Made by a program: the position numbers and the translations under genes. Under the pieces are notes generated by a model, which worked only from the letters and a program-made list of their open reading frames with translations, made no database searches and had not been told where the DNA came from. A DNA stretch of 42,088 nucleotides from a virus: IMG/VR virus record IMGVR_UViG_3300046830_000116, positions 1 through 42,088 of that record; one strand, given 5' to 3'. Every line of letters begins with the position of its first letter. The stretch's first letter is position 1. This document shows positions 56-34,396 of the stretch, piece by piece.

Positions 56-111
56 AACTGTCAGCAAGTGTGTGCTTGCTCTGATGATGGAACAAAAGTT
101 CCGAAACAGTT
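56..111 (+). ncRNA. hammerhead ribozyme 1 (type III)
   Basis: The order of elements is that of a hammerhead with open stem III. Stem III is 56-61 with 106-111 (AACTGT/ACAGTT). The cleavage triplet is GTC, with the cut expected after C62. Stem I is AGCAAG/CTTGCT (63-68, 75-80) with loop TGTGTG. The core CTGATGA is at 81-87, stem II is GGAAC/GTTCC with loop AAAA (89-102), and GAAA is at 103-106. One extra T (88) sits between the core and stem II, which is not canonical. Self-cleavage would leave a 5' end at 63, 80 nt before the ATPase start codon. Confidence 0.85.
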
Positions 112-139
112 CTTTTAACTTTCACAAACTGCGGAGGTG
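112..139 (+). promoter_or_regulatory. sRNA-complementary box plus Shine-Dalgarno, leader 1
   Basis: CTTTTAACTTTC (112-123) follows ribozyme stem III directly, and GGAGGTG is at 133-139. Both are exact reverse complements of GAAAGTTAAAAG and CACCTCC in the small RNA at 5643-5740. The same pair of blocks recurs in leaders 2 and 3. Confidence 0.7.
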
Positions 140-1276: not shown

Positions 1277-1331
1277 AAACTGTAATCGAGTGGGTACTCG
1301 GTCTGATGATTGCAAAAGCATGAAACAGTTT
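1277..1331 (+). ncRNA. hammerhead ribozyme 2 (type III)
   Basis: Stem III is 1277-1283 with 1325-1331 (AAACTGT/ACAGTTT). The cleavage triplet is GTA, cut expected after A1284. Stem I is ATCGAG/CTCGGT (1285-1290, 1297-1302) with loop TGGGTA. Core CTGATGA is at 1303-1309. Stem II is short, TGC/GCA with loop AAAA (1311-1320), and has a T-T mismatch next to the core. GAAA is at 1322-1325. The stems differ in sequence from ribozyme 1 yet still pair, which argues for a conserved structure. Confidence 0.82.
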
Positions 1332-1359
1332 TTTAACTTTCTTTTATTTTGCGGAGGTG
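1332..1359 (+). promoter_or_regulatory. sRNA-complementary box plus Shine-Dalgarno, leader 2
   Basis: TTTTAACTTTC directly after ribozyme stem III matches 11 of the 12 box positions, and GGAGGTG is at 1353-1359. The spacer between the blocks is 11 nt. Confidence 0.65.
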
Positions 1360-3966: not shown

Positions 3967-4050
3967 AACTGATAGGGAGAATGTGTGTTTTCCCCTGATG
4001 ACTCAATATGAGAGCGTGTAAGCGTTGGTTCAAAAGAACCGAAATCAGTT
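3967..4050 (+). ncRNA. hammerhead ribozyme 3 with stem II insertion
   Basis: Stem III is 3967-3973 with 4044-4050 (AAACTGAT/ATCAGTT pairing, 7 bp). The cleavage triplet is ATA, cut expected after A3974. Stem I is GGGAGAA/TTTTCCC (3975-3981, 3988-3994, one G-U) with loop TGTGTG, identical to ribozyme 1. Core CTGATGA is at 3995-4001. Stem II GGTTC/GAACC with loop AAAA (4027-4040) is preceded by 25 extra bases (4002-4026) that include a small CTCA-ATA-TGAG hairpin. GAAA is at 4041-4044. The insertion makes activity less certain than for copies 1 and 2. Confidence 0.72.
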
Positions 4051-4052
4051 CC

Positions 4053-4075
4053 TTTTAACTTTCAAATGCGAGGTG
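4053..4075 (+). promoter_or_regulatory. sRNA-complementary box plus Shine-Dalgarno, leader 3
   Basis: CTTTTAACTTTC immediately follows ribozyme 3, and GAGGTG lies six bases on. The box matches the small RNA exactly and the Shine-Dalgarno block matches 6 of 7 positions. Confidence 0.65.
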
Positions 4076-4078
4076 CAT

Positions 4079-4258
4079 ATGAAAAAAATATATGAAAAGT
4101 TTTTGAGTCTTTTTAAAACTCAAGGGGTGGAAGATAAACCTTATTATCTTTCGTATGAGAATGGTGGTGTTCTTGTTTTGCACAATCCTGTGGAACAGGG
4201 AGGAGAAAATATTACGAGTAATATTTCCTCAAGCGTCACAAAAACTGGAGGTGCGTAA
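4079..4258 (+). CDS. small unknown protein in ribozyme-led unit 3
   Basis: A 59-residue protein of unknown function with a basic N-terminus (MKKIYEKF). ATG 4079 is chosen because it sits six bases after the GAGGTG ribosome site, just as in leaders 1 and 2; an earlier in-frame ATG at 4025 lies inside the ribozyme and is not credible. The stop shares bases with the next start (TAATG). The gene contains a perfect-armed copy of the dispersed palindrome, read as NITSNIS. Confidence 0.7.
   Translation: MKKIYEKFLSLFKTQGVEDKPYYLSYENGGVLVLHNPVEQGGENITSNISSSVTKTGGA
4207..4226. promoter_or_regulatory. dispersed palindrome site 3 (best copy)
   Basis: AAATATTACGAGTAATATTT: two perfect 9-bp arms around a GA centre. 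This is the most complete copy and it lies inside a coding gene. Confidence 0.65.
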
Positions 4259-5433: not shown

Positions 5434-5483
5434 AGCGGAGGCTATGTGGTATTAATTTACTGCATAGTCTCCGCTTTTTTTTT
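5434..5483 (+). terminator. strong intrinsic terminator
   Basis: AGCGGAGGCTATG (5434-5446) pairs with CATAGTCTCCGCT (5463-5475), with one G-U pair and a 16-nt loop. Nine T residues follow. It ends the unit that finishes at 5411. Confidence 0.9.
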
Positions 5484-5510
5484 GGTCAAAAATCCTCTCC
5501 CGAAAACCAT

Positions 5511-5526
5511 GACTGGTAAATATTTT
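5511..5526. promoter_or_regulatory. dispersed palindrome site 4
   Basis: GACTGGTAAATATTTT: core plus right arm, with the extra A variant. It lies in the gene-free hub upstream of the DnaA boxes. Confidence 0.45.
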
Positions 5527-5574: not shown

Positions 5575-5595
5575 TGTGGATAACTCTGTGGATAA
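5575..5595 (-). promoter_or_regulatory. pair of perfect DnaA boxes
   Basis: TGTGGATAA occurs at 5575-5583 and 5587-5595. Its complement TTATCCACA is the consensus DnaA box. Two exact 9-mers 12 bp apart, with no other copy seen in the window, are very unlikely by chance. An AT-rich tract lies at 5519-5530 and the sRNA promoter starts 12 bp downstream. The site may be a replication origin, a DnaA-controlled promoter, or both. Confidence 0.7.
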
Positions 5596-5607
5596 GCTGT
5601 TAATAAT

Positions 5608-5636
5608 TTGACGAGGTGCAAGCCGATTGCTATACT
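5608..5636 (+). promoter_or_regulatory. sigma70-type promoter of the small RNA
   Basis: TTGACG (-35) and TATACT (-10) are separated by exactly 17 bp. The start of transcription is expected near 5643. No start codon with a ribosome site follows before the terminator, so the product is probably an RNA. Confidence 0.85.
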
Positions 5637-5642
5637 ATTTGA

Positions 5643-5740
5643 ACAGCGACAGAAATTGTCGTTATTAAGAAGTGTTTTAACGACACCTCCTAAGAAAGTT
5701 AAAAGTTGAGAGAGGTAATAGACTGCCTCTCTCTTTTTTT
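5643..5740 (+). ncRNA. predicted trans-acting small RNA
   Basis: A ~98-nt transcript is bounded by a strong promoter and a strong terminator, with no credible ORF. TGTCGTTA (5657-5664) pairs with TAACGACA (5678-5685). An alternative CGACA/TGTCG hairpin (5647-5661) excludes it. Just 3' of the main hairpin are CACCTCC (5684-5690), an anti-Shine-Dalgarno sequence, and GAAAGTTAAAAG (5694-5705). These are complementary to the ribosome site and to the CTTTTAACTTTC box of all three ribozyme leaders. The likely role is control of translation of the genes at 143, 1363 and 4079. Pairing is read by eye; expression is inferred. Confidence 0.75.
5708..5740 (+). terminator. intrinsic terminator of the small RNA
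   Basis: GAGAGAGG (5708-5715) pairs perfectly with CCTCTCTC (5726-5733) across a 10-nt loop, followed by seven T residues. Confidence 0.9.
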
Positions 5741-5786
5741 ATATAATGGGTTATTGGTTTATTTTTTTCATACCAATTCTCCCAAT

Positions 5787-5841
5787 GAGGAGGTGCTAGT
5801 ACAAAAGATAATTCTCCAAATTCTCTAGCTAGTGCCTCCTC
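5787..5841 (+). other. long hairpin with a sequestered Shine-Dalgarno-like sequence
   Basis: GAGGAGGTGCTAG (5787-5799) pairs with CTAGTGCCTCCTC (5829-5841) over 13 bp, including two G-U pairs, with a 29-nt loop. The left arm holds AGGAGGTG, but no start codon follows at useful spacing. There is no T-run, so it is not a standard terminator. Its function is unknown. Confidence 0.5.
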
Positions 5842-5853
5842 TCTAAATTAAAA

Positions 5854-5882
5854 TTGAATTACTGATAGCATTTCTCTACAAT
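5854..5882 (+). promoter_or_regulatory. promoter giving a leaderless transcript
   Basis: TTGAAT and TACAAT are 17 bp apart. The expected start of transcription falls on the ATG at 5889, so the mRNA would be leaderless. A direct repeat ATAGCATT (5865-5872 and 5881-5888) overlaps the spacer and the start region and could be an operator. Confidence 0.75.
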
Positions 5883-5888
5883 AGCATT

Positions 5889-6200
5889 ATGTATGCAGTT
5901 GTAAGACACACTTACGAATTAGATTTGCCTGAACCTTTTGTGAAATCTTCTCAGAAAAGTATTGGAAGATGGGTGCATAAGGTGTGGGTACATGACTCTG
6001 AGTTAGATGCTATTGCTCATGCAATTAAATTACTTGACGAACCTCTATTGAAACATGATGAGTGGGCAATGGACATAGCTATAGAACAGTTAAAAAATAA
6101 TAGGTTCTATCAGTTGGGTAAGGAAAGCGTAGCGATAGCAGAAGTAGAACCTTCGCCTGACATAGTGTACTTACATGATAACGATAACCAAATTAATTGA
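5889..6200 (+). CDS. unknown protein, 103 aa, leaderless
   Basis: No family is recognised. This 103-residue protein is soluble-looking, with an HTYELDLPEPF start and an acidic end. There is no ribosome-binding site; the promoter places the transcription start at the ATG. It is followed after 9 nt by the ribbon-helix-helix gene, with which it forms a short operon. That makes a role in early control plausible but unproven. Confidence 0.7.
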   Translation: MYAVVRHTYELDLPEPFVKSSQKSIGRWVHKVWVHDSELDAIAHAIKLLDEPLLKHDEWAMDIAIEQLKNNRFYQLGKESVAIAEVEPSPDIVYLHDNDNQIN

Positions 6201-6548: not shown

Positions 6549-7047
6549 GATACCAAAAGTTTAGCATTGCATCTGAGCAATCAATCACACTATCAAGTTG
6601 CGACTGAGTAATCCTATCAGGGTTCTCAGTCATGACTTTCCAAAACTCTTTCTCCTTCTTACTCCCACAATCTTCCACTAATCTGTTTTGAACTTGGCTG
6701 AGTACAAGTGGTTTTGTATTGACGCTGGGAGAACTATTACTAGTAAATATTTTGTCAAGGTCGCCAGCAGAACTCTGTGGGAAAACTCCTGACCTAGAAA
6801 TCAAACCAAGATATTTGTCACAAACATTGTGTTGCTTCTCGTTGATTAGTTGTTCGGTATAAAGCTTGTCGATGATATGCTGGTCAAAGACTATGGCTCT
6901 ACCAACCTTGGTATTATCAATGCTTCTAACTTCTACCTTGTGTCTCAGATGTAGATAGGAATTTCCTACATCATTTACGATAAGAACTTCCTCAGAAATC
7001 CCAGTCGAAGTCATCTTCTTGTTCTTCAATCTCTCCATACCTTCCAT
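6490..7047 (-). CDS. unknown protein, about 185 aa
   Basis: The function is not recognised. The protein is up to 185 residues. The start is uncertain: ATG codons at 7047, 7038 and 7014 all lie inside the end of the primase-helicase gene and none has a strong ribosome site, so translational coupling is likely. The C-terminal part (KEKEFWKVMTENPDRITQSQ onward) looks helical. The 3' end overlaps the convergent ribbon-helix-helix gene by 59 nt with no terminator between, so the two transcripts would be antisense to each other there. Confidence 0.65.
   Translation of the reverse strand: MEGMERLKNKKMTSTGISEEVLIVNDVGNSYLHLRHKVEVRSIDNTKVGRAIVFDQHIIDKLYTEQLINEKQHNVCDKYLGLISRSGVFPQSSAGDLDKIFTSNSSPSVNTKPLVLSQVQNRLVEDCGSKKEKEFWKVMTENPDRITQSQLDSVIDCSDAMLNFWYLSQTSPISLFQKAFLNLTE
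6736..6752. promoter_or_regulatory. dispersed palindrome site 5
   Basis: ATTACTAGTAAATATTT: central ACTAGT with a partial left and a full right arm, inside the 185-aa gene. Confidence 0.5.
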
Positions 7048-8806
7048 TTACTGCATTGTATTTAAGCTTAACACAGCCAAGTTTAGCGTTCCAATACCAT
7101 CTAGCTTTGGTGCAATGTATTTCTACTGCCTCGTTGCCTCTATGGACTGCTAAACAGACATCAGGTTTGGTACTCCATGCCATTGACTTAGCAATATCAA
7201 GCGGTGTTGGGTGTCCTACTTTCTCTTTGTTGAATGGCTTGCTTGGATGTGCTACGAACCAAACCAAACAATCAGTCTGCTTGGCAAACAGTTGCACCTT
7301 GCTCAACATATCACTAACCATATCTGTTTCTAGAGCATAGCTTTTATCTGAATGTATAAAGTTAAATGGGTCTATCACTAACATCCTACATCCCATCCTT
7401 AGAATACTTGCTTGTGCTTTTTCTAAGACAGCTTCTATTGTCGGCAATCCTCCATCCAAATAATCTTGAAACAATATATGTTCCTCTATCCATGCCGAAG
7501 CATCATTCCTCTCTGACTCTGTCATCCTTTCGTTGTGTCCTTTGAAAAATGGCTTACCAGTTATTATCTGTGCGAGTTGTACGCTGTGAAATGAGGGCGG
7601 TTTTTCAAAGCTAGCATAACAAGTTTTCCAACCATACAGCTTGCCAGCATTGACTATCACTTGGTCGAGGAAAGCAGACTTCCCATGCCCAGCCCATCCA
7701 GTCACGACATAAAGCTGACCAGTCTGAAGTGTGAACAAATCATCTAAAGACTTTATCCCAGTCGATATACCTTGTGGCTTACCATCTTTGTACAAAGTCT
7801 CGAACTCGTCTGAGTAATGCTTCATGCTATGCAATCCATGTAATTCAATAGGTTCTGCATTGAGGACTTGCTTCCTCAGAGTTGCCTCATCTGTGTTGAT
7901 AAGTAATTCATTAGCATCTTTGTATCCTTTGTAATCAACACGATAGCACTTTGCTTTCCCAATCCTTCTGCTCAATTCATGAACTAAACAATCTCCAGCA
8001 GTATCAGTATCTGAAGCTAGTATTATTTTGTCATACTTGTCCAACAAATCTTTGTCGTTCCAAACATACTTGAACCTACCATCTTCACTTGGGTCTACCT
8101 TCCCATCAGTAATCTTATTAGGACTTCCATTTGGCACAGAGAAAACAGAGACATCCATATCTGCCTCCAAGAAAGCTTGCTTGATTGATAAGGCATCCAT
8201 CTCTCCTTCTGTTATAACCAATCCCTCAATCCTTTTGCTTTCGTCTCCTTCCTTTCCCCACAATCTGCTAGCAGAATTTGTCCACCAAAAGTCTTTCTTG
8301 CCATTGGCTGTACGCCATTTACAAGCAGAAACTTTTCCGTTTTCCCAGTATGGAAAACCTATTACCAGTAAATGTTTTGTCTCCTCCCAGACACAATCCA
8401 TGTTTTTGGCGGTATCCAAATCAATCTTTCTATTGCCCAGCCAATCTCCAATCTTCTGCTCGCACTCCGATAGCTTCTCTTCTTTTATTGTACCGACAGA
8501 TATGCTTCCTCCTTTGGAACTCATGATGCTTAGATTACCACTTGTTGGTAGTGTGGCTGATGTTGTTGAGTCGCTTACTATTTCCATACTTCTTTCTCCT
8601 TTTCTAGATATGCCTCCCTTGATATTACAATGATGGCAATAATAGGTAATCATATCTATGCTGATGTTCACACTCAGAGGTGTGTCCTTTTTGTTTTTCT
8701 TTCTTTGGCTAGAACAATTAGGACAGATGATTTTATATTGACCTACCTTAAGACCTGATGTCCTTGGGTTGCTATCAATATGCTGGCGAATTTCTTTCTT
8801 TTCCAT
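6992..8806 (-). CDS. phage primase-helicase (T7 gp4/Twinkle type)
   Basis: This 604-residue protein primes and unwinds DNA at the phage replication fork. A zinc-binding domain is at residues 28-62 (CPNC and CHHC). A TOPRIM domain follows with VITEGEMDAL near 200 and ASDTDTAGD near 260. A RecA-fold helicase domain has Walker A GWAGHGKS near 370 and Walker B-like MLVIDPFNF near 475. Length and order fit the bifunctional family. ATG 8806 has AGGAG seven bases upstream; a GTG two codons earlier is too close to it. The gene follows an iteron-like array, and no DNA polymerase is seen in the window. Confidence 0.93.
   Translation of the reverse strand: MEKKEIRQHIDSNPRTSGLKVGQYKIICPNCSSQRKKNKKDTPLSVNISIDMITYYCHHCNIKGGISRKGERSMEIVSDSTTSATLPTSGNLSIMSSKGGSISVGTIKEEKLSECEQKIGDWLGNRKIDLDTAKNMDCVWEETKHLLVIGFPYWENGKVSACKWRTANGKKDFWWTNSASRLWGKEGDESKRIEGLVITEGEMDALSIKQAFLEADMDVSVFSVPNGSPNKITDGKVDPSEDGRFKYVWNDKDLLDKYDKIILASDTDTAGDCLVHELSRRIGKAKCYRVDYKGYKDANELLINTDEATLRKQVLNAEPIELHGLHSMKHYSDEFETLYKDGKPQGISTGIKSLDDLFTLQTGQLYVVTGWAGHGKSAFLDQVIVNAGKLYGWKTCYASFEKPPSFHSVQLAQIITGKPFFKGHNERMTESERNDASAWIEEHILFQDYLDGGLPTIEAVLEKAQASILRMGCRMLVIDPFNFIHSDKSYALETDMVSDMLSKVQLFAKQTDCLVWFVAHPSKPFNKEKVGHPTPLDIAKSMAWSTKPDVCLAVHRGNEAVEIHCTKARWYWNAKLGCVKLKYNAVNGRYGEIEEQEDDFDWDF
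8361..8378. promoter_or_regulatory. dispersed palindrome site 6
   Basis: ATTACCAGTAAATGTTTT, inside the primase-helicase. It is read in a different codon phase from the other coding copies, which argues against a protein-level cause. Confidence 0.45.
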
Positions 8807-11730: not shown

Positions 11731-11946
11731 ATGGAATTCGAGTATGACAGCAAGATAGGTTTTGAAGAGAACTTCAAGCTTTGGTACAACGAGAACTCTA
11801 GGGAAAGGAGGGCATATAACCAAGAGCCACATCCTTTTCCTATTGGCAGAAGGATTTTCACAGAACTTTATGGCAATAGAATTCTTGAAAAGAAAGACTT
11901 AACTAATTTTTTTGGAGGTGCAGATGGCACAGAAACAGAGAAGTAA
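11731..11946 (+). CDS. unknown small protein, 71 aa
   Basis: A 71-residue protein rich in Phe, Tyr, Arg and Glu, with no family recognised. Its 3' end overlaps the next gene by 23 nt, and that gene's ribosome site lies inside it. It starts 5 nt after the SSB-like gene and belongs to the same operon. Confidence 0.65.
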   Translation: MEFEYDSKIGFEENFKLWYNENSRERRAYNQEPHPFPIGRRIFTELYGNRILEKKDLTNFFGGADGTETEK

Positions 11947-14770: not shown

Positions 14771-17700
14771 CTAGTCGTAGTTAATATATGTACCAGCTTC
14801 TTTTCTAAGTTCAGGTACTTTAGAAAGTCTTAGGTTTCTTTCCATCTCTAATTGTTCAAGCATCTGTTTCTTAAGCTGAGGACTAATAGTTTCGTTTCTG
14901 TAGACTTTGTCTCTTCTGTCTCTCCACTTAGTCATGTATCTATTCAATGCTAATACTTGTGACCTCGTTCTAATCAGACCTTCGTTGTTCTTTCTGTAAG
15001 CTTCATACTCGTTATATAAGCCTCGTTCTTTAAGTCTGTTAAGGGTTGCTACTACCTTGGCACTTTCTTGTCTCAGTTCGTAGAAATCTTGCTGTAATCC
15101 TCCTCCTATCTCAGAACCTAATACACGCTTCAGGAGAGGTAATTGGTCAATCCTAGGGGGTATGATGTCTTTGCCAGTAGCAAGCCTTAGAGTGCCGTCT
15201 ATTAAGCTTAGAAGGTATCCTCCTAATGTACCGCCATATCCATTTAAAACATACTCTAGTTTTAAAGGAGACATATTGAACGCTCTACCTATTGCTACAG
15301 CTAATTGATTTGTGTTCTCTCGGTACTGCTGGAAATCTTCTAGACCTTCCTCCATATACTGTGGAACGATAGGACTTCTAGTAAAGCCACTTTTATTATC
15401 TACATAAGCTTCATACAAAGGTTTGATAGCTTGAAATCCTAAAGGGTCTACGCCAAAAGTATTTGTGACTGCCCTCAGAGTAGAGTCTCCTAAATCTTCT
15501 AGACTCCCTTTGCCAGCTACAGTATCCATCAATCTCTCAGGTAATGTCTTGAACAAAACTCCTACTTCAAAAGGTACTGGTATCTTTAAAGGTGGTAGGT
15601 CATTACCTGTAAATATCATCCAGTTATCATCTCGTTCTTCTCTTCGTCTAGCACGATACTCAGGTTCATCCGATACAAGAGCATAGTACATAGCTGTTAT
15701 CAACATTAACATTCCACCTCTAGTTATAAATCCAGCTATGACATCTCTTTGTAATTGTGCATCAGGCGTGTTGTCAGAGAGTTTTGTCATAGGTGAGGTG
15801 AAAGTCGCTCCCGGCTGCGATGCAGAATATTTACCAGTCATACTTCTGTACAGTACATCTAGTCCTTGAATTCTTGCGTTCAAGAATGGAATAGCTGTAG
15901 TCACCAACCTGAAGAAAGGATTGCTTCCTCTTCTAGAAAAGTTAATTATTTCTGCGGCTTGGTAAGCGGCTTCGGCTTGACTACCAGTTTCTTCTAATAC
16001 TTTTAGATAGACAGCTTTTCTAGTAGCACCATCTGACTCATAAGTTTTTCTGCCTAAGTAATCCCACAATCTTACTGTTGCATCTATAGGATTAAGAGAA
16101 CCATTGTTTGTTATACCTTCTTCTCTAAGAATTCTTTTTGTGTAATTGACTACACTCACACCATCTGCTGAATAATCATATCCACCTAATACTCCAAATG
16201 TTTCTAGGTCAGATAAATCTTCTTTACCAAATACTTTAAAGTTTTTAAAAGTATCAACGACAGGTGTTATGCCAGCACCACTTGTCACAGCCGCAGATAA
16301 AGTATCTCGCAACATATTGACCAATACAAAACCGGGGTCTCTTGTGACAGTCTCTCTTAATACAGTTGCTGGAAACGCTAATGCTTTTACAATGCCAGCA
16401 TCATCTACCATGCCTAAGTTTTCTAAACCTTTCAAATAAAAGGCATCATCAACTCTAAAGAATCTTCTTCTGCCGTTTACATATGCTGATAGCACATCCA
16501 TACCACTAGCATCTTTTGCATCTATTTCTACTGCTCTTCCAGATAAAACAAAGTTTCTTAATAGTTTTTGTAAGGCATCATTCTTTGAACCAGCAGTAAC
16601 TATTGATAGTTGGTTTCTATAGATTGCTTCTAAGAATGGCACATCGACAGCCTCTTCAGAACCTTTGAGTTTTACATTCAAAGGATTACCAGTCATCATA
16701 CCGCCAGCTATGTTAGGACCTTGAATAGAATCATCTGCCATCTTTCTATAGAAAGGATAATACACAGAGTCATCCTTCCAGATTTGTGCAGTAGACCTAA
16801 GTTCTATTCTGTTTTCAGGCTTAACTCTTTCATTGTAATTTCTAGCAAGCTCTAATATTTCTTCTGGAGTTTTGCCCTTAGTAGATTCAATACCAGCCTT
16901 CTTTAAAGCATCTGTAATTTCTTTTATGTTAGGCTCATTAGATAATATTCCTGAATCAACAGCAAAGTCTATTGTCTTGTTGTTGTATTCTTGAAAGTTA
17001 TCAAAGACTTCTTTTATAAAAAGATAATCCTCTCCTATTTGCAATCCTTGTTCTATCTCTGCTTCTGTAAGTGGAATTGGCTTGCCTTTTTCATTAAGCT
17101 TTTCTCCTCGTCTGGCGATAAAATAAAGCTTGGCTAACTCTTCATAATTAACATTATCGTTTTCAGATTTTTGATATAAGGGTGCAAAAATATTTATAAG
17201 ATTTAGTTTTGAATCTTTTTGTACAGATGTTAGTCCTTTATCTAGTGTGACAAAACCATGCTTTAACATAGAAGCAAAGATACCTTTAGCTTTATCTACC
17301 CAACGCAATGCTTGTATTGCACCTGTTGCGGCATCTGCTTCTAGTGTTCTTAGTGCTTCATTTTTTGTAATGCCCATCCTGACAGATAATTCTTGAACAG
17401 CATTTTTATCTACTATATTTGCTCTTAGTGTAGTAAGCCATCTCCTTACAGGAGTATTATCATTAAGTAAGTCAAGTGCAACTTCTCCATAAGACTGAGT
17501 AGTTCTTGCTGGACCATTAACTTTTTCTACAAGCTTTTCATATTTTTTAGGTACTGGTGCATCTGCCATTTTAAATGCTGGTATATCTAGGTAGTTGTCG
17601 TTGCCACCTTCTTCAAAATCAAAGGCAACCTTAAGAGCAAAACCGCTAGCATTGTTATTAATTCTAGGAATGGCAGTAGGACTAGTGTTAGCTACTTCTG

Positions 17701-20700
17701 CATCAGCCTTGGCTTGTGCTTCTATTATTCCTTTAGTGTCTGTTATTACAGAACTATTACCTTCTTCAAAAGGTTTGGTAGGTGGTGGTGTTATCCCTTG
17801 TTCTTCTGCGAATTTTTCGTAGACTCTGTAGATGGGGAGATAAAGACTGCTGATGGCGGCTCGCTGTACAAAGGATGCGTCTCCGGCAAAACTGGCATCT
17901 GCAAGCGTTTGGATAGCTCCTCGATAGTCGCCTGATTTATGTTCGTAGTATCTTCCTTCTTGTCCATATAGATTAAGATTATACTCTGTTTCTTGTGTTG
18001 GGAAAACCTCTCTAAAAAATTCTGCAAATGTATCTAAATCATTTCGATTGTAGTTTGGTTTGTAAAAACTAGCATCATCAATAAAAGTCACACCATTGGC
18101 ATTTTGATGTGTCATATAAGTAAAGTTTTTAGTATTGTCTCGCTCTTGTACTCTATTAAATATATCTCTTAATTCTTGAGCTTTAAAAGGTTTGCCATCT
18201 CTACGCTCTAAATAAACTCCAGTCTTTTGATAACCTCTTGCTTTGGGTTGAGTGACAATTACAGAGTCTTGTAAAAAAGCATCTCCCATTACTTTAGCTA
18301 CAGCTTCTACAATTACAGGCGGTTGATTAGGTAAAGCTATTTGTGTATTTAAGTTTAGTTCTCCTTCATAAGTTCCAGCAGACACTCCTAATCTGTGTGA
18401 TAGTCCTAAAGTTCTTAAGAATCTATTTGATTGCCCTGCAGTAGTAGCTTGTAGCATATCTTTGTACAACTGATTTCTTGCATCTTGAGATATTATTTTT
18501 CCTACAGGTGCATAACCTCTATCTCTACCAACCATATGTTCAAAGGTAATGAATGTTGCAGCGTTCAACGCTGCTTCCTGCAACACAGAAATATTACCAG
18601 TCGTATTTGTTCCTGTCTGGTTTGTAAAAGTTGGTGAGTAAATAAAGTAATCTTTTAATGGCGTATCCATTTGCCATTGTCCATTTTGCATCATAGCTTT
18701 CATTTCATTTACTTCTGTCTTTGACTTTAAAGCAGATTGTTGAAAGCTACCTTCGTTAGGTACATTAGTTTTATATCTTTGATAACCCCATAGCAAAGCT
18801 TGTATTTGATGTGCTGATGGGAAAATATAATCTTTACCATCAACTCTATATGTTCGGTCTGCTAACAGTTGCATTTGTGCTTCACCAATTTGATAATCTA
18901 AATCGCTGGCAGATGTAGGTTCGTTTCTAAGATTAGGTCTTACTAATCCTAAGTTCCTTATCATGTGTCTATCTATAACTGTAAAAGGTGAGAACCTTCC
19001 TTGTGCTAACTCTTTAATTGTTTGAGCATATGTTGCAGTTTTTTGACCAGTTTTTTTCCTTTCAAATAATCCATCTTGATAAAACTTAACTAGTTTATCT
19101 ATTCGTCTTGGTTCTTTTTTACCAACACTATTTTCTAACAAAGCTTTTTTAAATTGTTTAGGATTAGCAACTGGGTCTATTTTTCTAGCCTCAATCATGG
19201 TACGCAAAGTATCCTTAAAGTTTTGTTCAGGTGTGCCTTGTTCAGAAGTGACTCCAAAGACTCCACTAAACTCTGTGATGTTGGCATCTCCTATAAGTGC
19301 AGGTAATTGCAAAGACCATCTTTGATACCAGTCAGCATCTACACCTAAGCGTATAGCTTCCTTAACTTCATTAGCTAACTGCCTCATATCTTTAAAAGGT
19401 GGTGGAGTTTGTGTGCTAGTTGTTTTAACTTCATCATAAAGATTTCGTAAATCTTCTGCTTTAATATTTATAACACCTTTATCTCTTGCTAGATTTATGA
19501 CTGCAACTTGAGCATCAGACTCTCCCAGTAATGTATCTATATCTAGTGTAGGTTTTAATCTGTAAGCAGGGTCTGCTAAATAACTATCTAAATTATTTGT
19601 TTTTCTTATTGCATCACTATCACTAGCATCTTCTTCACTTACAATTTTTTGAGCATCTTCGGCTCTTAATTCTGAATTCAATAACCTGTCGCCAAAAGCA
19701 TCTGTGTCTCGTCTTGAACGAATAACATTTCTTTCTCTAGCACCAATCACTCCACTATTAATATCTTCTAAAATTTTGACTGGACTTCTAAAGTCACTAT
19801 TAAAAGTTGCTCCAACAAATTCTCTAAAGAAATCTAAAATCTTTTGGAAGATAGTTCTTGTTGGTTTGTTTAAAACTTCAGGATTAGTTGTATGTAATCT
19901 TAATAACTCAGCAACCATTTCTTCTTCAAGCATTGCAGAATCTTCAGCTAATACGCCAGCTTGTACATAATCTTTATAAAGTTCTTCTAATACATTATCA
20001 GGTAATTTTGCTTTAGCTTCTTTTACTAAAGACTCATGTTCTCTTTGCGTAATCAAATCTAAAACACGCAAGCTATGATATACCTCATGAGGAAAAGTTC
20101 CTTGTATTTGTTCTTCAAAGTTTTTTCTATCGTAAGTTTTATTAGGGTCTATTGTTCCCATATAAAAAACTAACTCTTGCATAGCTTTATCTGTTTCTGC
20201 TAAAGGATTAATAGGGTTGCCTTGTGCATCCTTAAGTGTTTTTAAAGCTACTATGTTTCCATTGTCATCTCTTACAGCATTTCTTACTTGTCGCATTTGG
20301 TCTGTAAATCTTAAACCTATGTCATTAAGACCTAATTCATTTAAACGATTTCTTAAATCCTCATAAAGAGAATCATAAGTTTTATTTGTTATAGGGGGGT
20401 CTAAGGCTAGAACTTCAACTTCTGCTGGTTGATTTGCCTCATCGAACTGTCGCTGTTCTTGTTGTTGTAGAAATAAAGGATTACCTTGTACTCGGTTTCC
20501 TACTTTAGTTGCACGACCACTATTAAGTAAATCGTTTTTAAATTTATCTCTTTGTGTTTTTGTGTTTGTTAGATTCTGTGATTTAAAGAAAGCTTGTATT
20601 TCTTTGTCAGTAATTTTGCCATTAACATATCCTTGATAAAAAGCATTAAGTTGTTGTGCTGTATATTGTCTAGGTTTTAAATCAGGTATCTTAGTTAAAG

Positions 20701-22969
20701 TATTAAATCTAGGCAGACCTTGTATTCTAGTCATCAAGAGTTCTTTTTGACCCCTGTTCATTCTAGAAAACTTAGCTTCTCCTGATAATTGAGAGTTAAT
20801 AAAATCAAACTCTGGACTAGTAATATTTCCGTCAATATTTTTAGCTGCTAATATTTCTTCAAAAGCTTCAGGACTTACATCTATTTTATCTTTGTTTCTG
20901 CCAATAGCTTTTATGTTCCCTAACTGCTCGTCTAATCTATAAATTACATTTGCTCTATCAGATAAAGCTTGGTTAAAGTCTTTTGGTTTCAAAAGCTTTT
21001 TGACTTCAGGTATTGTGTAATAGCCTTTCCTTTCTATACCTTTTGCATCTGCTATTTTATATAAATCTTCTATCAAACTACCTTGAGTTTCTTTCATTGC
21101 CTCTTGGATAGGTGAAACAATATCGCCATTATCATAGCGTTCCATAAGGTCTTTTGCTCTTTCAGAACCAAACTCTGCAGTTAGTTCTTTTTTCAGTTGT
21201 GCTTTGGTTTTCTTTCTGCCATTCGGATATTTAGGTGGAATAGCATCTAATGGATAGGCAGGTCTATTTAGAACAGTTAATTTTTCTAGTTCCTTTATTT
21301 TATTTTCATCAAGCGTACCTTCTCCAGTAAGGTCTCTTATCATTTGTGCATTAAGAACTTTTTCTAAGTTTTCTATTTCATCTATTCTAGCTAACTGTTC
21401 TTGCCTTGCTTTGCTATTAGTAGACTCCATAATAGCAACTTTCCTAGCATCAACTTGATTGGCTAAAGGGTCATACAAATTTTGAGTTAGTTTTTGAAGT
21501 GTTGGATTATCTTTCATTCCAACAATATCTGATATTTGACTACCAGTATCCTGTATAAATTTTGTTCTTAATTCATCAGCTACTACTAAAGCATTTTGAG
21601 ATGCCTCTTCCATTGCACCTAATACATCAGGATTTGTTTCAATTAAATTACCATCCCTATCAAAACTCTCTATAGGTATAAAGTGATTGCTGTATTCTGT
21701 TCCTGACACCATGCCAACAACAGAAGAAGAACCATCTTCATTATTTAAAACCTCTACATTTTCTAAGAAAGGAAGTTCTTGTATTTGAGATGTTGTAGCG
21801 TTTGACTCTGGTATTGGTTCGCTTTTTATTAAAGGTCCAAGACTACCATCTTCTCTTTGACTTGCTGCAATAAGAACATCTTCATTTACAAAAGGTACAT
21901 TGTTATCATATATTGATTGTTGTTCTGCTCTTTGTTTTGCTCTTAATTCATCTGCTTTTTTTCTAGACAAAGTTTCTTGTTCTAAATCATAACTTTGACT
22001 AATACGAGCAGGTCCAGCAAACCCTCGTAATACTAAATCAGCAAAAGCACCAACAGCACCACCAGTCACTATGCTATCAAATACAGATTCTCCAACAGGT
22101 AGTTCATCGCTATATACACCAGCAGCTACTGCATCTTGTAATATTTCAGCTAACCCTTCTTGCAATCCTTCTACAGTACCTGTAGCCATAGCAGATTTAA
22201 TTCTATCTAAAACATTAAGTTGTGTTGCACCAGCTTTAGTTATTTTTCTTAATAAGAAAGTAGGTGCAAATATTTCTGTAGCACCAATACCCGCACCTAA
22301 TATTTCAGATAGAATTTCTTGACCTGCACCAACATCTTCACCCAATGCTTCTGCTTGTCGAATTCTTTCACCTTGTCCAGCTATACCTGAAGGCATGGCT
22401 ACACTTAGAGCAGAAGCAGTTTGTACTTTATTTAATCTTTTAGTGACATCATCTAAACTTTTTGTTAGTTTTTCTGTAAGTTTTGGATTTCTTCCTTGCA
22501 ATACACTTTGATTTACTAAACCTTGTAAGTTTTTAGCTTTGCCTGCTAACCCAGTAATTCTTGCTGCAGCAGTACCCGGAATCAAAAATGCAGCAAGAGA
22601 ACCTAAACCTTGTCCAAACTGTGTACTAAATCTTTCTTCGTATCCTTCTGCTGCACCTAAAGCACTTTCATTTATTACTTGTTGTGCATTTCTTAAAGCA
22701 TTGCTAACTGCATTATCATTATCGTTATCAAATAAATTAGCTATACCTTCTCCAGCAGATAAAAAAGTATTTGCTAATCCTCTTGGTATTCCTTTAGCAA
22801 CCTCCGCTAAATCTCCACCAAAAGTAGTTTCAACTGGTTCTGTATAAGGCTCTATAAAGTCAGGATACTCTTGAGCTAAAGTATTTTGTAATCTAATAAG
22901 ATATTGTCTATCAGGATTATCAGGAACATTTACAAATCTACCATCTGGTAAATTATATTTAGTAGACAT
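14771..22969 (-). CDS. giant LPD38-type internal virion protein, 2732 aa
   Basis: This is the largest gene of the window. It resembles the giant polyvalent proteins that marine phages keep in the virion and may inject with the DNA. Near residue 960 is PHEVYHSL, an HExxH zinc-peptidase motif (His961, Glu962, His965). Toward the C-terminus, near 2340-2350, NFSRRGSNPFF and following residues fit the large polyvalent protein-associated domain 38. The N-terminus has hydrophobic glycine/alanine stretches near 120-140 (LGSLAAFLIPGTAAARITG) that could touch a membrane. The rest is long helical sequence. ATG 22969 shares a base with the preceding stop. Ejection or antirestriction roles are inferred from family and position. 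The gene carries several palindrome copies. Confidence 0.8.
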   Translation of the reverse strand: MSTKYNLPDGRFVNVPDNPDRQYLIRLQNTLAQEYPDFIEPYTEPVETTFGGDLAEVAKGIPRGLANTFLSAGEGIANLFDNDNDNAVSNALRNAQQVINESALGAAEGYEERFSTQFGQGLGSLAAFLIPGTAAARITGLAGKAKNLQGLVNQSVLQGRNPKLTEKLTKSLDDVTKRLNKVQTASALSVAMPSGIAGQGERIRQAEALGEDVGAGQEILSEILGAGIGATEIFAPTFLLRKITKAGATQLNVLDRIKSAMATGTVEGLQEGLAEILQDAVAAGVYSDELPVGESVFDSIVTGGAVGAFADLVLRGFAGPARISQSYDLEQETLSRKKADELRAKQRAEQQSIYDNNVPFVNEDVLIAASQREDGSLGPLIKSEPIPESNATTSQIQELPFLENVEVLNNEDGSSSVVGMVSGTEYSNHFIPIESFDRDGNLIETNPDVLGAMEEASQNALVVADELRTKFIQDTGSQISDIVGMKDNPTLQKLTQNLYDPLANQVDARKVAIMESTNSKARQEQLARIDEIENLEKVLNAQMIRDLTGEGTLDENKIKELEKLTVLNRPAYPLDAIPPKYPNGRKKTKAQLKKELTAEFGSERAKDLMERYDNGDIVSPIQEAMKETQGSLIEDLYKIADAKGIERKGYYTIPEVKKLLKPKDFNQALSDRANVIYRLDEQLGNIKAIGRNKDKIDVSPEAFEEILAAKNIDGNITSPEFDFINSQLSGEAKFSRMNRGQKELLMTRIQGLPRFNTLTKIPDLKPRQYTAQQLNAFYQGYVNGKITDKEIQAFFKSQNLTNTKTQRDKFKNDLLNSGRATKVGNRVQGNPLFLQQQEQRQFDEANQPAEVEVLALDPPITNKTYDSLYEDLRNRLNELGLNDIGLRFTDQMRQVRNAVRDDNGNIVALKTLKDAQGNPINPLAETDKAMQELVFYMGTIDPNKTYDRKNFEEQIQGTFPHEVYHSLRVLDLITQREHESLVKEAKAKLPDNVLEELYKDYVQAGVLAEDSAMLEEEMVAELLRLHTTNPEVLNKPTRTIFQKILDFFREFVGATFNSDFRSPVKILEDINSGVIGARERNVIRSRRDTDAFGDRLLNSELRAEDAQKIVSEEDASDSDAIRKTNNLDSYLADPAYRLKPTLDIDTLLGESDAQVAVINLARDKGVINIKAEDLRNLYDEVKTTSTQTPPPFKDMRQLANEVKEAIRLGVDADWYQRWSLQLPALIGDANITEFSGVFGVTSEQGTPEQNFKDTLRTMIEARKIDPVANPKQFKKALLENSVGKKEPRRIDKLVKFYQDGLFERKKTGQKTATYAQTIKELAQGRFSPFTVIDRHMIRNLGLVRPNLRNEPTSASDLDYQIGEAQMQLLADRTYRVDGKDYIFPSAHQIQALLWGYQRYKTNVPNEGSFQQSALKSKTEVNEMKAMMQNGQWQMDTPLKDYFIYSPTFTNQTGTNTTGNISVLQEAALNAATFITFEHMVGRDRGYAPVGKIISQDARNQLYKDMLQATTAGQSNRFLRTLGLSHRLGVSAGTYEGELNLNTQIALPNQPPVIVEAVAKVMGDAFLQDSVIVTQPKARGYQKTGVYLERRDGKPFKAQELRDIFNRVQERDNTKNFTYMTHQNANGVTFIDDASFYKPNYNRNDLDTFAEFFREVFPTQETEYNLNLYGQEGRYYEHKSGDYRGAIQTLADASFAGDASFVQRAAISSLYLPIYRVYEKFAEEQGITPPPTKPFEEGNSSVITDTKGIIEAQAKADAEVANTSPTAIPRINNNASGFALKVAFDFEEGGNDNYLDIPAFKMADAPVPKKYEKLVEKVNGPARTTQSYGEVALDLLNDNTPVRRWLTTLRANIVDKNAVQELSVRMGITKNEALRTLEADAATGAIQALRWVDKAKGIFASMLKHGFVTLDKGLTSVQKDSKLNLINIFAPLYQKSENDNVNYEELAKLYFIARRGEKLNEKGKPIPLTEAEIEQGLQIGEDYLFIKEVFDNFQEYNNKTIDFAVDSGILSNEPNIKEITDALKKAGIESTKGKTPEEILELARNYNERVKPENRIELRSTAQIWKDDSVYYPFYRKMADDSIQGPNIAGGMMTGNPLNVKLKGSEEAVDVPFLEAIYRNQLSIVTAGSKNDALQKLLRNFVLSGRAVEIDAKDASGMDVLSAYVNGRRRFFRVDDAFYLKGLENLGMVDDAGIVKALAFPATVLRETVTRDPGFVLVNMLRDTLSAAVTSGAGITPVVDTFKNFKVFGKEDLSDLETFGVLGGYDYSADGVSVVNYTKRILREEGITNNGSLNPIDATVRLWDYLGRKTYESDGATRKAVYLKVLEETGSQAEAAYQAAEIINFSRRGSNPFFRLVTTAIPFLNARIQGLDVLYRSMTGKYSASQPGATFTSPMTKLSDNTPDAQLQRDVIAGFITRGGMLMLITAMYYALVSDEPEYRARRREERDDNWMIFTGNDLPPLKIPVPFEVGVLFKTLPERLMDTVAGKGSLEDLGDSTLRAVTNTFGVDPLGFQAIKPLYEAYVDNKSGFTRSPIVPQYMEEGLEDFQQYRENTNQLAVAIGRAFNMSPLKLEYVLNGYGGTLGGYLLSLIDGTLRLATGKDIIPPRIDQLPLLKRVLGSEIGGGLQQDFYELRQESAKVVATLNRLKERGLYNEYEAYRKNNEGLIRTRSQVLALNRYMTKWRDRRDKVYRNETISPQLKKQMLEQLEMERNLRLSKVPELRKEAGTYINYD
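15826..15843. promoter_or_regulatory. dispersed palindrome site 12
   Basis: AATATTTACCAGTCATAC inside the giant gene; a weaker ATTACCTGTAAATAT lies at 15602 and ATTACCAGTCAT at 16686. Confidence 0.4.
18589..18606. promoter_or_regulatory. dispersed palindrome site 13
   Basis: AAATATTACCAGTCGTAT inside the giant gene: full left arm and core, imperfect right arm. Confidence 0.45.
20816..20829. promoter_or_regulatory. dispersed palindrome site 14
   Basis: ACTAGTAATATTTC inside the giant gene; core and right arm. It is the rightmost copy found. Confidence 0.45.
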
Positions 22970-33109: not shown

Positions 33110-33909
33110 TCCTTATAACTCCAAAATTTTTTTTGAATTCCTTTTTCTATAGTAGCTAATATTGCTTCTTCTATAGCAGACTGCAATGCTATCGTAACGC
33201 TTTCGTTTTCAACATCGCCATTTTCTATTTCAATTAGCTCTGTTCTATTTTCTATAAATCTAAATCCATCTTGATTTGTGCCAACACTAAGAATACTTTT
33301 TGTTATAGAAACTTCTATCAATACTCTGCCTGTTAATACAGATACAGTTCTTAATGATAAAGTTACAGTATCTTGTTTATACTCTTTAGAAGCACCTATA
33401 CCTAATAACCTTGCACCTCTACCACCGCTTCTAGTATTAGTTTCATAACCTATAATTGCACCTTCCATTATCAAACCTGCAAACATTAATGGCTTAAGCT
33501 TTTGCGGGTCATCAAAAGATTCTCTTGTGCTTCTTATAAGCTGTCTTTCTTTTGTAAGATTATCTAAACCTATTCTTTCTACAACTTCAAAAAACTCTCC
33601 ACCTGAAACTTCTTTTAATGTTTTTATAAGCAAAACATAAGGTGCTTGTGTGACTGCTGTACTGAATGTTGCAAAACTATTATTACTTCTTCTTTGCCCA
33701 GTTTGGTCTGTAAACGAAGTTGGATATACAGCAACTATAGGTTTCTTTTTGGCAGCAGGCGTTTCAGTAATTTTTTTATTAATAACACCAACCCTTTCAG
33801 GATACTTTGATATTTCTTTATTAGGCAAAGCATCATCATAAAAAACAGTACAGCTAGAAAGTAAAACTATTGAGAGGAAAAGTAATAACTGTTTGTTTAT
33901 TATCTTCAT
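33106..33909 (-). CDS. csgG: CsgG-like curli secretion channel lipoprotein
   Basis: This 267-residue protein aligns by eye along most of E. coli CsgG. It has the lipobox LLSSC (Cys20), then VAVYPTSFTDQTGQ, SFATFSTAVTQAPYVLLIKT and LKEVSGGEFFEVVERIGLDN, then the channel-forming MEGAIIGYETNTRSGGRGAR with LLGIGASKEY, then TVTLSLRTVSVLTG and ITKSILSV. CsgG forms a nonameric outer-membrane pore for curli subunits. The csgF-like gene overlaps upstream by 56 nt and the curlin-like gene follows. It could export the curlin-like protein or serve as a lysis-stage or surface pore; the sequence does not tell. Confidence 0.9.
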   Translation of the reverse strand: MKIINKQLLLFLSIVLLSSCTVFYDDALPNKEISKYPERVGVINKKITETPAAKKKPIVAVYPTSFTDQTGQRRSNNSFATFSTAVTQAPYVLLIKTLKEVSGGEFFEVVERIGLDNLTKERQLIRSTRESFDDPQKLKPLMFAGLIMEGAIIGYETNTRSGGRGARLLGIGASKEYKQDTVTLSLRTVSVLTGRVLIEVSITKSILSVGTNQDGFRFIENRTELIEIENGDVENESVTIALQSAIEEAILATIEKGIQKKFWSYKE

Positions 33910-34396
33910 TAGTAACTGTTAGTGTAATATTTGTAGTGTCTACCTTATAATCAATAGTGTTTCCTTCTAACTCTATTGTTCCATTATCTTGCGGAGTCTC
34001 TCCAAATAACTTTTCTACAAGTTGTTGTGAAAGTTTGGCATAAACTCTAGTTTCAAAATTTCTTATAAATCTAGCTGTAGTAGTGTTTTGTTCATCTCTT
34101 TCTGCTTGTTCTACTAAGGCTTCTACTTCTTCTTGTATAGTTTTGTATCTAGTATGTTCTTGATTTTCTATTGTTAAATAATGTTGCGATGTATTAACTC
34201 CTGAAAAACTAGGAGACTTAAACTTGAAAGTCATCTCACTAGCTAATGCTAGATTTACACAAAATGCTATGACTATAAACAAACCAACATACATACAAAT
34301 AATTAAAGCTAAATCTTTATCTCTTGCTTTTTTTCTAGCAACTAGTTCTGCTTTAGAAGGTCTGCCTCTTTTTCTTTTAATCTTTTCTTTGGTCAT
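33854..34396 (-). CDS. csgF: CsgF-like protein with an AT-hook-like N-terminal extension
   Basis: The mature part begins SEMTFKFKSPSFSGVNTSQH, close to the TMTFQFRNPNFGG start of CsgF, and ends with a strand-rich domain (NTIDYKVDTTNITLTVTNED). CsgF caps the CsgG pore and couples secretion to fibre nucleation. Ahead of the signal segment (residues 29-52, cleavage after ALA) is an unusual basic stretch of about 28 residues, KRKRGRPSKAELVARKKARD, containing the GRP core of AT-hooks. CsgF of E. coli lacks this. The extension might be a cytoplasmic anchor or DNA-binding leader, or the true start may be Met35. Confidence 0.82.
   Translation of the reverse strand: MTKEKIKRKRGRPSKAELVARKKARDKDLALIICMYVGLFIVIAFCVNLALASEMTFKFKSPSFSGVNTSQHYLTIENQEHTRYKTIQEEVEALVEQAERDEQNTTTARFIRNFETRVYAKLSQQLVEKLFGETPQDNGTIELEGNTIDYKVDTTNITLTVTNEDNKQTVITFPLNSFTF

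Follow-up and report, generated by a model that had tools for sequence, protein, structure and literature searches.

A candidate phage small RNA complementary to hammerhead ribozyme leaders and co-varying with them across lineages

What might a short stretch of phage DNA be for, if it has its own promoter and terminator, no gene, and complements of the start regions of several ribozyme-led genes of the same genome? The window, by which we mean the whole stretch of DNA analysed here (an IMG/VR virus record, 42,088 bases long), raises this question at positions 5643-5740. We observe at this locus the anatomy of a small RNA gene and complementarity to the leaders, stronger for leaders with hammerheads than for other start regions; the pairing is also conserved and has co-evolved across lineages. 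We consider it very probable that the locus encodes a trans-acting antisense small RNA of the phage, serving a set of mRNAs with ribozyme leaders; its expression, cleavage of the leaders, repression and the timing in infection are inferred.

The small RNA gene and the leaders it matches

An earlier, sequence-only reading of this DNA had placed a promoter and a terminator but no gene at 5643-5740, and had described CACCTCC and a 12-nt box lying 3 nt apart. Both descriptions hold: a promoter and terminator scan recovers the signals, no open reading frame of at least 60 aa was found across the region, and CACCTCC and GAAAGTTAAAAG are indeed separated by 3 nt (Table 1). The unit sits between the terminator of the upstream operon and a gene at 5889. 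The predicted fold of the 98-nt RNA has a hairpin at the 5' end, a second, weaker one and the terminator, and is more stable than those of shuffled sequences. An independent gene with its own promoter and terminator is one criterion for a trans-encoded antisense small RNA, met here as far as sequence can tell; the other, conserved and co-varying complementarity to targets encoded elsewhere, is met as well. No family reached its gathering score in an Rfam scan of 5600-5870, the highest hit being sraA (20 bits, E = 0.77); with only sub-threshold scores, assignment to c4 antisense RNA or to another Rfam small RNA was rejected.

Table 1. Features of the small RNA locus and of the hammerhead leaders, in coordinates of the window
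Feature	Position	Strand	Sequence	Evidence or remark
Type III hammerhead, leader 1	56-111	+	core CUGAUGA/GAAA	core and stems; predicted cleavage after C62; Rfam Hammerhead_3 E = 6.2e-5 (86-nt search)
Leader 1 target	112-139	+	CTTTTAACTTTC 112-123 (12/12); GGAGGTG 133-139 (7/7)	precedes AAA ATPase gene starting at 143
Type III hammerhead, leader 2	1278-1330	+		core and stems
Leader 2 target	1330-1359	+	TTTTTAACTTTC 1330-1341 (11/12); GGAGGTG 1353-1359 (7/7)	precedes gene starting at 1363
Type III hammerhead, leader 3, extended stem II	3967-4050	+		core and stems
Leader 3 target	4052-4075	+	CTTTTAACTTTC 4052-4063 (12/12); GAGGTG 4070-4075 (6/7)	precedes gene starting at 4079
Upstream operon terminator	5434-5484	+		strong stem-loop 5434-5475 plus T-run; separates operon from small RNA
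Sigma-70-like promoter, extended -10	5608-5636	+	-35 TTGACG 5608-5613; spacer 17 bp; -10 TATACT 5631-5636, preceded by TG	promoter scan; kept in close relatives, -10 altered in L009
Candidate trans-acting small RNA gene, ~98 nt	5643-5740	+		promoter/terminator scan; fold z = -4.2; 8 close relatives; same position in distant lineages
Small RNA 5' hairpin	5645-5663	+		fold; relatives show consistent changes and, in the loop, an insertion of 18 nt; absent from L009; other lineages also have a 5' hairpin
Complement of leader Shine-Dalgarno	5684-5690	+	CACCUCC (DNA CACCTCC)	kept in L009 despite differing flanks
Pairing box, complement of leader box	5694-5705	+	GAAAGUUAAAAG (DNA GAAAGTTAAAAG)	unchanged among close relatives; varies together with the leaders in distant ones
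Small RNA intrinsic terminator	5708-5740	+		stem-loop 5708-5733; T-run to 5740

Two further elements flank the gene. At 5575-5595, just 5' of its promoter, the minus strand carries two perfect DnaA boxes (TTATCCACA); the window has no others that are perfect, and DnaA-like boxes are also found upstream of the RNA in L326, L336, L302, L363, L365, L381 and L384. The boxes possibly mark an origin of replication or a means by which DnaA controls the RNA. A TATAAT promoter overlaps the small RNA terminator, and downstream of this promoter lies a long hairpin (5786-5841) with GGAGGTG in its 5' strand, whose stem is kept through G-C/G-U/A-U changes in L009 and L046; a sponge or an RNase III site is possible.

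The window hammerheads are assigned to type III by their core (CUGANGA, GAAA), three stems, NUH site and open stem III, and their self-cleavage is inferred. Our strict hammerhead detector gave no match in 20 shuffled windows. Leader 1 scores 28.9 bits against Rfam Hammerhead_3, so that the gathering score of 48.5 is not met; the hammerheads were missed in an Rfam search of the whole window at E values up to 1, and one was found when a short region was searched. Many type III hammerheads carry an extra U between A9 and stem II. The complement counts that the earlier reading had given for the three leaders are correct, and the sole box mismatch, in leader 2, is a T (U) opposite a G of the small RNA, which permits a G-U pair. 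Its placing of the box directly 3' of ribozyme stem III agrees with leaders 1 and 3, where the box starts at, or one base past, the 3' strand of that stem. Its figure of three ribozyme leaders is right for the window but too low for the phage group, which has four: the close relatives (11 related contigs) show a further leader 0 upstream of the window's first base. An 18-nt dispersed repeat resembling ATTACTRGTAAATATTTT also occurs in this DNA, at 1237-1254, 5509-5526, 6736-6753, 8361-8378 and elsewhere (8 matches with up to 3 mismatches, 0.6 expected); it is present in relatives too, sometimes as stem III of a type I hammerhead.

The small RNA is present in all eight close relatives that reach the region. 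L009 differs in the 5' half of the RNA, where the hairpin is lost and the spacer measures 5 rather than 3 nt; both boxes are intact. The leader boxes of the close relatives vary only at positions 1 and 12, from C to T opposite G in the RNA, and the linkers between box and Shine-Dalgarno (SD) sequence differ in length and in sequence. A candidate twelfth close relative, L030, was rejected as a chance match.

Pairing preference within genomes

When pairing was scored against the start regions of the window, a check that the sequence-only reading had proposed, the three hammerhead leaders came out as the top three of 49 SD-type start regions in a duplex-energy ranking. Elsewhere, hammerhead leaders hold the top three of 16 places (L296), the top two of 29 (L295) and the top one of 16 (L302), and of 73 hammerhead leaders pooled from 21 loci, 95% pair better than the SD start regions without a hammerhead in their own locus do on average. 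The hammerhead leaders of L298 are not ranked above its other start regions, and in lineage B (L298-L301) shuffles are clearly beaten mainly at leader 1.

Plain duplex energies calculated with the full leader are misleading because self-structure is ignored; co-folding and permutation were used instead. A co-folding scan of the whole stretch puts the leaders in the best ~1-2% of 4,200 windows, not at the top, and would not by itself have singled them out. Each by itself, leaders 1 and 2 do not surpass controls in which the part before the SD was dinucleotide-shuffled (0.15 and 0.13), and scanning the whole window for the 12-mer with up to two mismatches gives 10 sites where 12.7 are expected, which is weak by chance alone. 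It is the position of the leaders and the co-evolution in relatives, rather than the rarity of the 12-mer, that exceed chance.

One other start region of the window, 11924 (11914-11924, GGAGGTGC), pairs about as well as the hammerhead leaders and has no recognised hammerhead; it is a good fourth, and may be a target lacking a ribozyme. Conversely, an unrelated 52-kb phage contig (L150:255-350) has a canonical type III hammerhead leader with GGAGGTGC and no pairing box. A hammerhead leader, even one with a strong SD, thus does not by itself imply the box.

Co-variation of the RNA and the leaders across lineages

More distant phages were recruited through profiles of the neighbouring protein and of the VWA/DUF2201 protein, the VWA proteins being ~34-50% identical and their sample consisting of the best 80 of 542 VWA relatives in IMG/VR. 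The family that emerges comprises uncultured, mostly marine phages. Among the matches listed, our detector finds type III hammerhead leaders before the same genes in 81 of 86 loci, and an RNA candidate lies at the same position in 40 of the 46 loci whose sequence continues for 3 kb or more beyond the VWA gene. Its order is usually a 5' hairpin, followed by NCCTCC, box and terminator; in three of the remaining six loci (L378, L392 and L396) a similar sequence had been overlooked by the terminator filter. Candidates were picked by requiring CCTCC or CACCTC before the terminator, so the anti-SD part is there partly by construction; the box and the SD flanks are unbiased by this choice. The distant RNAs aligned too poorly in MAFFT for a covariance model to be built on them. 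In lineage C, a type I hammerhead replaces the type III hammerhead before moxR without loss of the pairing box. Besides the type III ones, as many as three type I hammerheads precede genes of this region in L337-L397.

Outside the family, those pattern matches that were examined (L073 and L030) were rejected as coding or chance. GenBank phages yielded no DNA relative of the window's first 8 kb and no relative of the neighbouring gene, and none of this gene was found in bacterial genomes either; in the stretches examined of the terminase relatives DSL-LC04, 023Pt_psg01, HTVC027P and HTVC023P and of Roseobacter phage CRP-7, our detector found no hammerheads. As to the rest of the window, a phage gene in the structural region (33854-34396) matches the Pfam family CsgF (curli secretion, E = 4e-15), and a 2,732-aa open reading frame with an LPD38 domain (14771-22969) probably encodes an ejected virion protein.

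Across the lineages of the family the two partners change together. The window pairs leader CTTTTAACTTTC with RNA GAAAGTTAAAAG, L302 pairs leaders CTTTTAACTA with RNA TAGTTAAAAG, and lineage C pairs leaders ATCTAACTAA and CTAACTAACT with RNA AAGTTAGTTAGAT; among the paired changes are CTTTTAACTT in the leader and AAGTTAAAAG in the RNA for the window, and ATCTAACTAA and TTAGTTAGAT for lineage C. The flank of the SD part co-varies as well, with RNAs carrying ACCTCC (ACCUCC) facing GGAGGT (GGAGGU) and RNAs carrying TCCTCC (UCCUCC) facing GGAGGA. In a permutation test, each leader was scored against the RNA of each lineage, and the RNAs were then shuffled among lineages. With 15 lineages, the mean cognate duplex energy was -19.2 kcal/mol, compared to -15.3 (sd 0.74) for the permuted sets, and none of 20,000 permutations was as low. 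With only 8 conservative, deliberately separated lineages, p was 1.7e-4, and 1.1e-3 when the SD part was removed on both sides. Co-folding of the full RNA, with self-structure included, gave -13.5 for cognate pairs and -9.3 (sd 0.86) kcal/mol for permuted ones (0 of 40,000 as low), the cognate RNA being the best in 7 of the 8 lineages. These permutations assume exchangeable lineages, which is not strictly true, and the lineages are not fully independent. The proposal that one phage RNA pairs with several ribozyme leaders as a regulon is supported by this co-divergence in several lineages. A search of related phages for the same pairing and for compensatory changes had been suggested, and both were found; independent divergence of RNA and leader boxes in relatives, which would have refuted the proposal, is the opposite of what is seen.

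That an A-rich small RNA should match U-rich, SD-bearing leaders by chance is barely credible in view of the cross-lineage permutations (p ~1e-3 to <1e-4) and the ranking within genomes, even if leaders 1 and 2, taken one at a time, are not significantly better than shuffles and the 12-mer is not rare in the window at two mismatches. Conservation of the box for its own sake is another reading: it could be an A/U-rich translation enhancer (an S1 site or an 'epsilon'-type element), with the RNA having arisen as an inverted copy of a leader. The window box does sit 5' of a strong SD and contains UUUAACUUU, which we take to resemble an element of the T7 gene 10 leader, and the reverse strand of 5684-5705 reads like a leader. 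We nonetheless hold this very unlikely; the box differs between lineages and follows the small RNA, so that a T7 gene 10 'epsilon' enhancer, a UUAACUUUA-type element independent of any trans RNA, was rejected, and a general enhancer would not predict cognate specificity.

Two other explanations accept the pairing and dispute its purpose. The leaders might be sponges titrating a small RNA whose main targets are host mRNAs; in favour, ACCUCC is able to pair with many strong SDs, and the lineage A RNA keeps CCTCCTAAGAAA, a perfect fit to a lineage-B leader and to nothing else in the window. This we find highly improbable, as it is phage genes that start at these leaders, with the SDs at the centre of the pairing. 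Alternatively, the RNA might activate or protect the leaders without repression, by shielding the processed 5' region from RNases or by aiding the folding of the ribozyme. The window box adjoins stem III, on which the duplex could stack, and the boxed region is inferred to be single-stranded and exposed to nucleases. We consider this unlikely, since the duplex includes the SD in the lineages examined and should therefore exclude ribosomes, and since the box is kept where type I replaces type III before moxR.

Proposed mechanism and relation to known systems

We thus prefer an antisense RNA that acts in trans on the ribozyme leaders. It would probably be transcribed by the host sigma-70 polymerase from its own promoter, with the anti-SD sequence (CACCUCC) and the pairing box predicted to be mostly open or weakly folded between the 5' hairpin and the intrinsic terminator. 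The RNA may then base-pair with a two-part site, box plus SD, in the hammerhead leaders of several phage mRNAs; the putative target units comprise the AAA ATPase gene, the VWA/metallopeptidase gene together with the gene of unknown function ahead of it, and a small gene, to which relatives add a fourth. Such pairing would cover the ribosome-binding site, with coordinated translational repression as the most likely outcome, and perhaps mRNA decay. Translational repression is the simplest reading because the pairing takes in the SD in the lineages examined, and it remains an inference. The ribozymes, for their part, would cut a longer transcript into units, so that each gene gains a short leader with a common address for the RNA.

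The sequence-only reading had also raised an effect of pairing on ribozyme folding, for which we find no support. The window duplex stops at the edge of stem III and abuts it without entering, and the type I moxR leader of lineage C has the same box; pairing therefore seems tied to the start region of the mRNA and not to ribozyme chemistry. With less assurance, we lean towards a wider generalisation: in a large clade of phages, hammerheads cut polycistronic RNA into single-gene mRNAs that share a box-plus-SD address, one small RNA switches the set, and address and reader co-evolve fast, giving a code private to each lineage.

If so, a single RNA could switch off several ribozyme-processed genes together, or control them in some other way. 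The phage would then encode an RNA regulon with multiple targets, inferred from compensatory changes that occur naturally in many lineages, each with a pairing code of its own. What hammerheads do in phages has been described as unresolved (PMC6155905, PMC3088659), and a co-evolving small RNA partner suggests a concrete, testable function for the ribozyme products, namely short mRNAs with a common regulatory address. Phage hammerheads (PMC3088659, PMC6155905) and phage antisense RNAs acting on ribosome-binding sites (PMC12197685) are already known; neither their coupling nor a small RNA devoted to hammerhead leaders was found described in the literature searched.

Prophage hammerhead clusters of several types flank single genes or short gene blocks, and the task suggested for them is the division of long phage transcripts into mRNAs the length of a gene (Perreault et al. 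2011, PMC3088659). The phages studied here likewise have several hammerheads of several types, and that proposal is consistent with our reading; the passages of that paper examined mention no small RNA partner, whereas here a fixed order of hammerhead, box and SD is matched by a trans RNA. Theta (HDV-like) ribozymes, which are self-cleaving, occur in gut phages and are linked to tRNA-based recoding, belong to a different class from the window hammerheads, the common trait being self-cleaving ribozymes in phages (PMC10879173).

The RNA itself also has known counterparts. Hfq-type trans-encoded small RNAs usually place their seed before an intrinsic terminator that ends in a U-tail, and the small RNA described here has this layout. 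VpdS of VP882 and lambda PreS are phage-made, trans-acting small RNAs of the Hfq-type class (PMC12197685); the targets found here, in contrast, are the phage's own hammerhead leaders. The short phage RNAs c4 (P1/P7) and sar (P22) pair with ant mRNA and block its translation, c4 doing so around the ribosome-binding site; each is described for this one gene and without ribozymes, whereas the RNA described here matches three or four distinct leaders in trans (PMC12197685).
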